This document shows positions 27,760-29,245 of a DNA stretch of 44,056 nucleotides, piece after piece. The notes beneath the pieces were generated by a model that worked only from the letters and a program-made list of their open reading frames with translations, searched no databases and had not been told where the DNA came from. Location of the stretch: assembly GCA_021808545.1 (NCBI GenBank), contig JAKBBM010000013.1:1-44056 (forward strand), given 5' to 3'. The first letter of the stretch is position 1. Every line of letters starts with the position of its first letter. The position numbers were made by a program, and so were the translations under genes. Source of the stretch: Pseudomonadota bacterium (GTDB lineage: Bacteria > Pseudomonadota > Alphaproteobacteria > Acetobacterales > Acetobacteraceae).

Positions 27760-28125
27760 ATGCGCGAAACTGATATCAACGCCGTCCTGTCCAGCCTCAA
27801 TGGCGGCTTGTCCGAAATCGAGGCTTCGTTCCTGGTTTCGCTGGATGGTCTGATCATGGCCTCTGCCCTGGCCCCTGGCATGGATGAGACACAAACCAGC
27901 GCCCTTGTCGCGGCGGTGCTGACGCTGGGCGCGCAAATCGCCGCCGAAGTGCAGCGCGGCGCGCTGGAACAGGTCCTGATCACCGGAACGGCGGGACATA
28001 TCCTGATCCAGCAGGCCGGCGACCATGCGGTGCTGTGCACGGTGGCCGGTAAAACGGTCAAGCTCGGGCTCTTATTTCTTGATACAAACCGCGCCGCCCA
28101 AGCTGTGAAAGCGCTTCTGCAATAA
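27760..28125 (+). CDS. Roadblock/LC7-domain protein
   Basis: A 121-residue single-domain roadblock/LC7 protein. Recognisable are INAVLSSLNGGLSEIEASFL, VSLDGLIMASAL, the helix with ALVAAVLTLGAQIAAEV, and HAVLCTVAGKTVKLGLLFLD. In bacteria such proteins regulate MglA-type Ras-like GTPases in polarity and motility, or act as dimeric platforms; no such GTPase gene is in the window. ATG at 27760 has GGAGG four bases upstream; an in-frame ATG at 27736 would add eight residues. The stop overlaps the next start by one base (TAATG), and the next protein contains a diverged copy of this domain, so the pair probably arose by duplication and forms heterodimers (inference). Confidence 0.85.
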   Translation: MRETDINAVLSSLNGGLSEIEASFLVSLDGLIMASALAPGMDETQTSALVAAVLTLGAQIAAEVQRGALEQVLITGTAGHILIQQAGDHAVLCTVAGKTVKLGLLFLDTNRAAQAVKALLQ

Positions 28126-28979
28126 TGCCCGCACCAGCACTGTCCGCCCGCGCGGCGCCGCAAGCCGCCGGCACCTTGCTGGCGCGCGGCGCAACCGTCA
28201 TCGAGACTCATCTGCCCCCCGGGCAGAATGCATCGCGCGCCGCGGACTTGGCGGCCAGCCTCCTGGCACGGGGCGAACAGATCTCAAACGGGCTAGGGCG
28301 CGGCGCGCTGCTGCATGTGCTGGTGCGAGGCCAGGCTGGCAACGCGCTCATCCTACCCGCCGGTGAAGGCCGCCACTTACTGACCCTGGGCGGCCAATCC
28401 ATGCAATTGGGGCTCTTGTTTCTGAACGCCAGCCGCACGCTCACCGCTCTCGCCGCCGAATCGTCCGCGCCAGCGCCCGCCGCAACGCCCGACCGCCCGC
28501 AATTTGGGGCCTTGGTGCCGATGCTGACACTCAAACCGGGCGATGCGGCGCTGATCCGCCAGATCAGCGCCGCCATGCGGCCTTATCTGCCCGTTCTCAC
28601 CGCGCGGTTTTTCGATATGCTGTATGAAGAAGCCGCCCTGACCGACAGCCCCGCACCGCTGCGCGACCTGCACACCTCTTGGCTGCACAGCCTGTTCACC
28701 GGACACGAGTACGGCCCCGATTTCGTGCAACGGCAATTGGCATTTGGCGCGGCCTTTGCCCAGGCCGGCTTCACCGCCCCGCTGGCCGCGGCCAACACGG
28801 CGTTTTTACGGCTGGCGCTGCCCCCCACCCTGGCCGCCTGCCTGCCGCCATCCGCCGAGTCCAGCGCCGCCAGCGCCATCAATATCGCCTTGCTGCGCCT
28901 GCTGGAAAATTGCCACAGCCTGCTGGCCGCCGGACGCGCGCGCCTTGGCAGCGGCGCCGCGCGCGCGCCGGCCGCGTAA
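28125..28979 (+). CDS. Roadblock-protoglobin fusion lacking the heme histidine
   Basis: A 284-residue protein with two parts. Residues 15-110 align with the upstream roadblock protein (GRGALLHVLVRGQAGNALIL against QRGALEQVLITGTAGHILIQ; LGLLFLNASRTLTAL against LGLLFLDTNRAAQAV). After an Ala/Pro linker (111-125), residues 132-270 resemble globin-coupled-sensor protoglobins: MRPYLPVLTARFFDMLYEEA, HTSWLHSLFTGHEYGPDF and VQRQLAFGAAFAQAGF. In the family motif R...G..H...GL the His ligates heme; here that place is Phe211, so heme binding as in HemAT is unlikely. It may sense another ligand, as non-heme globins such as the RsbR N-terminus are thought to do. Coupled to the roadblock gene by TAATG. The globin assignment is by motif, not by a search. 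Confidence 0.72.
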   Translation: MPAPALSARAAPQAAGTLLARGATVIETHLPPGQNASRAADLAASLLARGEQISNGLGRGALLHVLVRGQAGNALILPAGEGRHLLTLGGQSMQLGLLFLNASRTLTALAAESSAPAPAATPDRPQFGALVPMLTLKPGDAALIRQISAAMRPYLPVLTARFFDMLYEEAALTDSPAPLRDLHTSWLHSLFTGHEYGPDFVQRQLAFGAAFAQAGFTAPLAAANTAFLRLALPPTLAACLPPSAESSAASAINIALLRLLENCHSLLAAGRARLGSGAARAPAA

Positions 28980-29153: not shown

Positions 29154-29245
29154 GGTGGATATGGTGGGCGCGACAGGGATTGAACCTGTGACCCCCACCA
29201 TGTCAAGGTGATGCTCTACCGCTGAGCTACGCGCCCATATCCACC
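29154..29245. repeat. Inverted repeat flanking tRNA-Val
   Basis: GGTGGATAT (29154-29162) and its perfect complement ATATCCACC (29237-29245) stand immediately outside the tRNA acceptor stem, so the precursor RNA could form a 9-pair extension of the acceptor helix with the CCA region bulged out. It may affect 5' and 3' processing, or be a remnant of an insertion (inference). Confidence 0.55.
29162..29236 (-). tRNA. tRNA-Val (anticodon GAC)
   Basis: On the minus strand a complete cloverleaf can be drawn: acceptor GGGCGCG paired with CGCGCCC, D-arm GCTC-AGCGGTA-GAGC, anticodon stem TCACC/GGTGG with loop TTGACAT (anticodon GAC), T-arm with GGTTCAATC, and an encoded 3' CCA. Length is 75 bases. It reads GUC and GUU valine codons. 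Flanking sequence extends the acceptor helix (see the repeat entry). Confidence 0.95.

Follow-up and report, generated by a model that had tools for sequence, protein, structure and literature searches.

Two overlapping genes encode a roadblock protein and a roadblock-protoglobin fusion

The window analysed here is a 44,056-nucleotide stretch of DNA from a bacterium of the genus Acidocella (genome of 2.44 Mb, 93% complete). It carries two overlapping genes on the forward strand. P0001 (27760..28125, +) encodes a stand-alone roadblock/LC7 protein of 121 aa, recognized from its sequence and its match to Pfam Robl_LC7 (43 bits, E 3.8e-11, cut-off 23), and a GGAGG-like ribosome site lies immediately 5' of its ATG. 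P0002 (28125..28979, +) encodes a 284-aa roadblock-protoglobin fusion, as judged from Pfam, an AlphaFold2 model and Foldseek. The genes are coupled by TAATG, in which the stop of P0001 overlaps the ATG of P0002. The roadblock domain of P0002 comprises residues ~15–113 (28167..28463, +; match to P0001, alignment, models); residues 15–112 are 37% identical to P0001 (E 3.6e-13). The protoglobin domain comprises residues ~126–278 (28500..28958, +; Pfam Protoglobin, profile against solved structures). A preliminary description of the locus, made from sequence alone, had proposed a single roadblock protein coupled by TAATG to a diverged copy of itself with a protoglobin-like second half, and all of these elements are borne out. 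Overall, the gene pair is real and correctly described, and in part already precedented, as discussed below.

Both Pfam matches of P0002 are weak. Robl_LC7 is borderline (21.6 bits in the protein scan, 23.8 in the whole-genome scan, cut-off 23), and Protoglobin scores 21.9 bits for the whole protein and 23.6 for the domain alone, both below the cut-off of 25. No STAS domain was matched in P0002 in the Pfam scan. The whole-genome profile scan returned P0001 and P0002 as the only roadblock matches, and P0002 is the sole protoglobin match in the scan of the 93% complete assembly. The roadblock domain of P0002 lacks its first helix and keeps the GRG-L--VLV-G--G and LGLLFL motifs. Its open frame spans 298 codons, and since none of the 14 in-frame codons 5' of the ATG is ATG, GTG or TTG, a mis-called start is ruled out and the missing helix is not a start-site error. 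Codon composition is of the coding type, and all length changes seen in the alignment are in-frame. A promoter and terminator scan found nothing.

An AlphaFold2 model of P0002 built from 34 sequences (mean pLDDT 81.4, pTM 0.64) recovers both the roadblock and the globin fold in Foldseek searches against the PDB. These gave a match to roadblock structure 9jue (best roadblock E 5.5e-5, TM by target 0.60; at most 0.64 for other roadblock structures among the matches listed) and matches to the sensor globins AfGcHK 5ohf_C (0.78), HemAT 1or6_B (0.74) and 2w31 (0.71). For a His-bearing relative from Acidocella aromatica (L067), modelled from the same sequences with pLDDT 86.0, the corresponding values are 0.89 for 9jue, 0.85 for 2w31 and 0.80 for HemAT 1or6_B. 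Residues 1–12 of P0002 have pLDDT below 50, giving no confident first roadblock helix, and a short helix before helix E (178–184 in the L067 model) is missing from the P0002 model. As modelled, both domains of P0002 resemble solved structures less than those of L067, which fits decay.

The gene order IMPase, PepA, S24 regulator, roadblock-globin genes, Clc, POP, DnaE is found whole in G150 and G087 and recurs in part in G110, G157 and G315; this recurrence supports the assembly at P0001/P0002. The S24 label comes from Pfam and the Clc label from the G150 orthologue; the other neighbours are labelled from a reading of their sequences. Upstream, the S24-peptidase regulator belongs to the core genes of the genus: it is matched in 35 of 38 genomes, 34 of them at ≥76% identity (counts that include our own genome and one partial match). 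Genomes across the genus that lack the roadblock-globin module carry it too, so it probably does not belong to the module. One relative (G306, L150) has none of the roadblock-globin genes at the site bounded by S24 and DnaE. Downstream, the opposite strand encodes a tRNA-Val (29162–29236), and the Clc channel gene follows beyond it. Operon neighbours were dropped as functional evidence, S24 being a core gene and Clc lying past an opposite-strand tRNA-Val. A Pfam search of 30 neighbouring proteins encoded in relatives revealed no common neighbour that would name an output.

The heme site of P0002

A profile of 15 globin domains (P0002 and 14 relatives) matches the solved sensor globins GsGCS 2w31 (E 2.9e-18), AfGcHK 5ohe (E 6e-11) and HemAT 1or4 (E 2.6e-10). 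In the profile alignment the family motif IGEAH falls on HemAT IASIH, where P0002 reads AFGAAF. Counted from the same alignment, the tyrosine of the family RFY motif corresponds to HemAT residue 70 and the histidine of IGxxH to residue 123, which we take to be the distal Tyr and the proximal His, respectively. P0002 has Phe211 at the proximal position (F8, HemAT His123; codon 28755..28757, +; profile and alignment) and Phe163 at the distal one (B10, HemAT Tyr70; codon 28611..28613, +; alignment of 49 globin domains), and so carries neither of the two residues of heme-binding protoglobins. A third phenylalanine, Phe207 (codon 28743..28745, +; alignment), stands four residues before the ligand position, where most relatives carry Ile. 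The preliminary description had placed Phe211 at the site of the proximal His, and the alignments agree; it did not mention Phe163, Phe207 or the missing helices of the two domains. A single base error fails to account for Phe211, because no His codon can be reached from its TTT in fewer than two base changes.

P0002 retains histidines at 183, 188, 194 and 264, which might conceivably hold heme. A globin fold that is otherwise kept but has lost its proximal His and distal Tyr is the pattern of RsbR-like non-heme globins, and judging from this loss P0002 has most likely given up heme binding and O2 sensing. A shortage of heme is unlikely to explain the missing ligands, since a ferrochelatase gene (349 bits) is present in the genome; the explanation that heme was lost because the organism makes none was rejected for this reason.

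Relatives within the genus and the order

The fusion family occurs in 16 of 38 genus genomes and in 14 of the 23 good-quality ones, 15 genomes falling below the line of 90% completeness and 5% contamination. We tabulated the globin domains of 20 distinct fusion proteins from these 16 genomes together with 29 other globin domains (28 stand-alone and one GGDEF-EAL sensor); fragments shorter than ~100 residues, of which there were two, were left out. Among the fusions, F8 is His in 14, Lys in four (G180, G263, G211, G320), Tyr in one (G087) and Phe in one, P0002, and it is His in 29/29 of the other domains. B10 is Tyr in 19/20 fusions, the exception being the Phe of P0002, and in 28/29 other domains, the remaining one having Met. 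All four His-less fusions of the Lys clade adjoin an unfused His-bearing globin gene. The heme-less globin sensor of the preliminary description is hence likely for P0002, whose ligand residues are missing, but not as a general feature, since most fusions keep the His. On these alignments the heme-less state reads as a derived condition of P0002 and two other lineages and not as a property of the system.

Across the order, the globin domain of this family was found in 12 of 299 genomes (our own included), all from the same genus; none was seen in the other 63 genera of this draw. P0001 has matches in 14 of the 299, two of them in other genera. Of the 11 other genus genomes that match it, 8 carry a stand-alone roadblock gene whose product is 55–62% identical to P0001; the other three contain fusions only. 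A stand-alone roadblock gene accompanies the fusion in 12 of 16 fusion genomes, our own included. None was seen in G150, G157 and G087 in the search with P0001, nor in G315, which was searched with P0002 only. The best match to P0002 in the 38 genus genomes is only 37% identical, and no close orthologue was found there. Both genes of the pair therefore have relatives in the genus, but the TAATG-coupled order of roadblock then fusion was seen in our own genome only and in none of the relatives' stretches, where the parts occur in other orders or are divergent. The preliminary expectation of the same gene pair in related genomes accordingly holds for the components and not for the exact arrangement.

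Protoglobin matches in frames of ~500–580 residues, such as a HemAT-type chemoreceptor at L128:496-2004, also recur across the genus; none lies in our own genome.

Relatives outside the genus

Scanning two peptide patterns against named genomes gave 30 loci, 14 in the genus itself and 16 outside. At 5 of the 16 a clear roadblock gene immediately precedes a separate globin gene, the unfused protoglobin having both His and Tyr in each case. These are L077:3569-4525 and L078:3518-4525 (two contigs of one Acidithiobacillus ferrivorans strain), L085:3485-4498 (another Acidithiobacillus), L090:3275-4390 (a Chromatiales assembly) and L081:2963-4057 (an Acidobacteriaceae assembly). In A. sulfuriphilus (L086) two globin genes flank a weak roadblock match (E 2.5e-7). 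Since at the other 10 outside loci (L080, L083, L084, L088, L091-L096), among them three Wohlfahrtiimonas, the available stretch has a globin gene but no roadblock gene, the pairing is not universal. No relative was found in viral contigs, and P0002 has no match on plasmids; an unfused globin of Acidithiobacillus gave two weak plasmid matches, to globin-coupled sensors.

Several of these loci have further features. A Protoglobin-GGDEF-EAL gene (L078:500-3157) lies just upstream of the A. ferrivorans pair and is a possible link to cyclic di-GMP, in one case. In the Acidobacteriaceae assembly a roadblock protein that by eye has hydrophobic N-terminal stretches (L081:4671-5432) adjoins a roadblock gene and two globin genes. 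An unfused globin of L086 (2080-2793) combines F8 His and B10 Met with Ile at an otherwise conserved E-helix His, and adjoins a gene with EAL and HDOD matches.

Repeated loss of the proximal histidine

We built a maximum-likelihood tree from 47 globin domains, omitting the GGDEF-EAL sensor and the L086 globin with B10 Met; in it, fused and unfused globins separate with support 97/90. The tree requires three separate losses of the proximal His among the fusions (Lys clade, Tyr, and Phe in P0002) and none among the 29 other globin domains, and three are still needed when the B10 and F8 columns are blanked. Grouping the six His-less fusions in a single clade is rejected (p-AU 7.6e-5), although long branches call for caution here. 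However, because the fused branch makes up 10.4 of 20.3 units of tree length, three losses against zero are not significant alone. The end branch of P0002 is the longest in either domain tree, 1.59 changes per column for the globin and 2.1 for the roadblock domain, compared with 0.41 for P0001 in the roadblock tree. The latter gives P0002 no firm place, and descent from a copy of P0001 or from an old fusion partner is compatible with it.

For the Lys-type fusions one of six pairs, G211-G320, is unsaturated (the other five have dS > 1) and gives dN 0.074, dS 0.572 and dN/dS 0.13 for the whole protein, and dN/dS 0.145 for the globin half. In the same two genomes dN/dS is ~0.08 for the unfused globin and ~0.03 for the roadblock protein. 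His-bearing fusions range from 0.24 to 0.61, which indicates only moderate constraint, and compared with them the Lys-type value of 0.13 gives no sign of unusual constraint. By this measure the Lys-type fusions look maintained, and a His-less fused globin can therefore be a kept protein. For P0002 itself, 2.5% of sequences generated by a first-order Markov model of its composition lack an in-frame stop over the 284-codon frame, and 8.7% of frames stay open after a simulated 0.5 substitution events per site, indels uncounted. Long complete neutrality of P0002 is thus disfavoured.

Possible partners and known systems

Bacterial roadblock proteins are known mainly as partners of small GTPases, MglB being the type case. 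We found no small Ras-like GTPase in our own 93% complete genome: Arf, Ras and Roc profiles gave no match over cut-off, the weak matches sitting in frames of 903 and 445 residues. The search used these three profiles, and a GTPase to which they give a low score, or one encoded in the missing 7% of the assembly, would have escaped it. Assignment of the pair to an MglA/MglB system was rejected on this result. P0001 is the only candidate roadblock partner for P0002 seen, because these two are the only roadblock matches in the genome. MglB is described as the GAP of the GTPase MglA, with an MglB/RomY complex in Myxococcus (PMC9481161). The Acidocella pair shares the roadblock fold with it, and here too a second protein would modulate a roadblock protein, but MglB acts on MglA, and no such GTPase was seen here.

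The preliminary description knew of no described system with this architecture, which is correct only in part. HGbRL of Methylacidiphilum infernorum is a published globin-roadblock fusion that binds heme through Lys-His ligation and that its authors regarded as unique to that genus (PMC4476040). Like P0002, it joins one globin to one roadblock/LC7 domain in a genome that also encodes a stand-alone roadblock protein; it has been proposed to be a heme sensor with a roadblock output. The two nevertheless differ in domain order and globin class, HGbRL having an N-terminal, HGbI-related globin followed by the roadblock domain and P0002 a C-terminal globin of the protoglobin family; P0002 thus falls outside the HGbRL family. 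HGbRL binds heme whereas P0002 has neither ligand residue, and M. infernorum has an MglA-like GTPase gene, with none found in our genome by the three profiles. On this evidence the Acidocella family is a second, separate joining of globin and roadblock domains. A search of the open-access literature returned no paper on an Acidocella-type roadblock-protoglobin and, by title, nothing relevant on Acidocella and globins.

Globin-coupled sensors have chemoreceptor, kinase, cyclase and similar domains as outputs, and their globin is N-terminal. P0002 shares its globin fold and family with HemAT, AfGcHK, GsGCS and DosC, and most of its relatives keep the ligand residues. A parallel for P0002 itself is Bacillus RsbR, classed as a non-heme globin without heme- and O2-binding residues, whose domain from B. 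anthracis was crystallised with a fatty acid (PMC4976288) and which is described as having no helices C and D (PMC4476040). Both have a sensor-type globin that lacks the heme-site residues and is shortened in the C/D region, and other species have heme-bearing relatives of it. RsbR differs in its output, a STAS domain in the large stressosome, and in its N-terminal globin; the domain joined to the globin in P0002 is a roadblock. A protoglobin kinase is described in PMC6211767, from which we draw no link to roadblock proteins.

A heme sensor that may have become a heme-independent regulator

We consider it about evenly balanced whether P0002 is a former heme sensor turned heme-independent regulator that pairs with P0001, and we prefer this explanation to those discussed below. 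The ancestral module would have combined a roadblock scaffold with a sensor globin that had all its heme ligands, encoded by neighbouring genes or as a fusion. P0002 would descend from a fused sensor whose globin lost both ligand residues, phenylalanines taking their place, and by analogy with RsbR this globin may have been kept as a heme-free regulatory domain, with another ligand or none. It would act on the roadblock domain of its own chain, which would pair with P0001 made from the same message, and either a non-gas signal or a fixed state would pass from P0002 to P0001. The data show the two domains, the overlap of the genes, the missing ligand residues, the kinship with His-bearing relatives and at least three losses on the tree; the absence of heme, the shared message, the pairing and any signal are what we infer, as is the two-protein switch of the preliminary description, for which the three profiles found no small-GTPase partner. 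The long branches of P0002, its poorer resemblance to solved structures, the only moderate constraint on His-bearing fusions, the remaining histidines, a coupled order seen only here and the 4 of 16 fusion genomes without a stand-alone roadblock gene speak against the explanation.

The main rival, because both domains of P0002 are eroded, is that P0002 is a decaying paralogue whose sensor function was lost and whose constraint has relaxed, the gene now being lost and P0001 retained. The preliminary description raised no such possibility, but with a P0002 branch far longer than that of P0001 (~four to five times in both domain trees) decay is a live alternative. It is also in keeping with the loss of roadblock helix 1 and of the short globin helix, with two Pfam scores just below cut-off in the protein scan, and with the 22 of 38 genus genomes that have no match, although 15 of the 38 are of lower quality. 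Nevertheless, the frame is intact with in-frame length changes and coding-like codon composition, the core roadblock motifs are retained and the parallel Lys lineage looks maintained, so that we regard decay as the less probable outcome, at something like a one-in-several chance. Lower still we place a pseudosensor that senses nothing and, as a fixed-state or antagonist subunit, tunes the amount of free P0001. Phe at three heme-site positions would suggest a filled pocket, the two genes overlap, and the Lys-clade fusions all have a His-bearing globin as neighbour; yet our 93% complete genome has no other protoglobin match left to antagonise, and we find this unlikely.

Least probable, in our estimate, is continued heme binding by P0002 through another residue such as His183, His188 or His194. 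Unusual ligands do occur in globins, as in the Lys-His pair of HGbRL (PMC4476040), and F8 is Tyr in one relative and Lys in four. However, both standard positions of P0002 are Phe, and the position of His183 is also His in nearly all His-bearing relatives, which argues that it is no new, compensating ligand.

More broadly, and quite tentatively, roadblock and protoglobin might constitute an undescribed GTPase-free gas-signalling module in Acidocella, Acidithiobacillus and others, in whose fused branch three ligand losses led to heme-free subunits, P0002 being the most extreme and forming a heterodimer with P0001. If true, such a module would give roadblock proteins a second mode of action with a measurable input (O2, CO, NO). 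The lasting interest lies in the recurrent loss of heme ligands in the roadblock-globin family rather than in a single gene pair: three losses within one genus, among His-bearing sisters, form a natural series from heme sensor to heme-free regulator, a step so far best known from RsbR.

One member of this series stands somewhat apart. The fusion of Acidocella sp. KAb 2-4 (G087, L055:7233-8150) has Tyr at the position of the proximal His, and its genome has no roadblock match besides the fusion. Tyr can be a heme ligand, and the Tyr-type fusion may be a separate kind of sensor.
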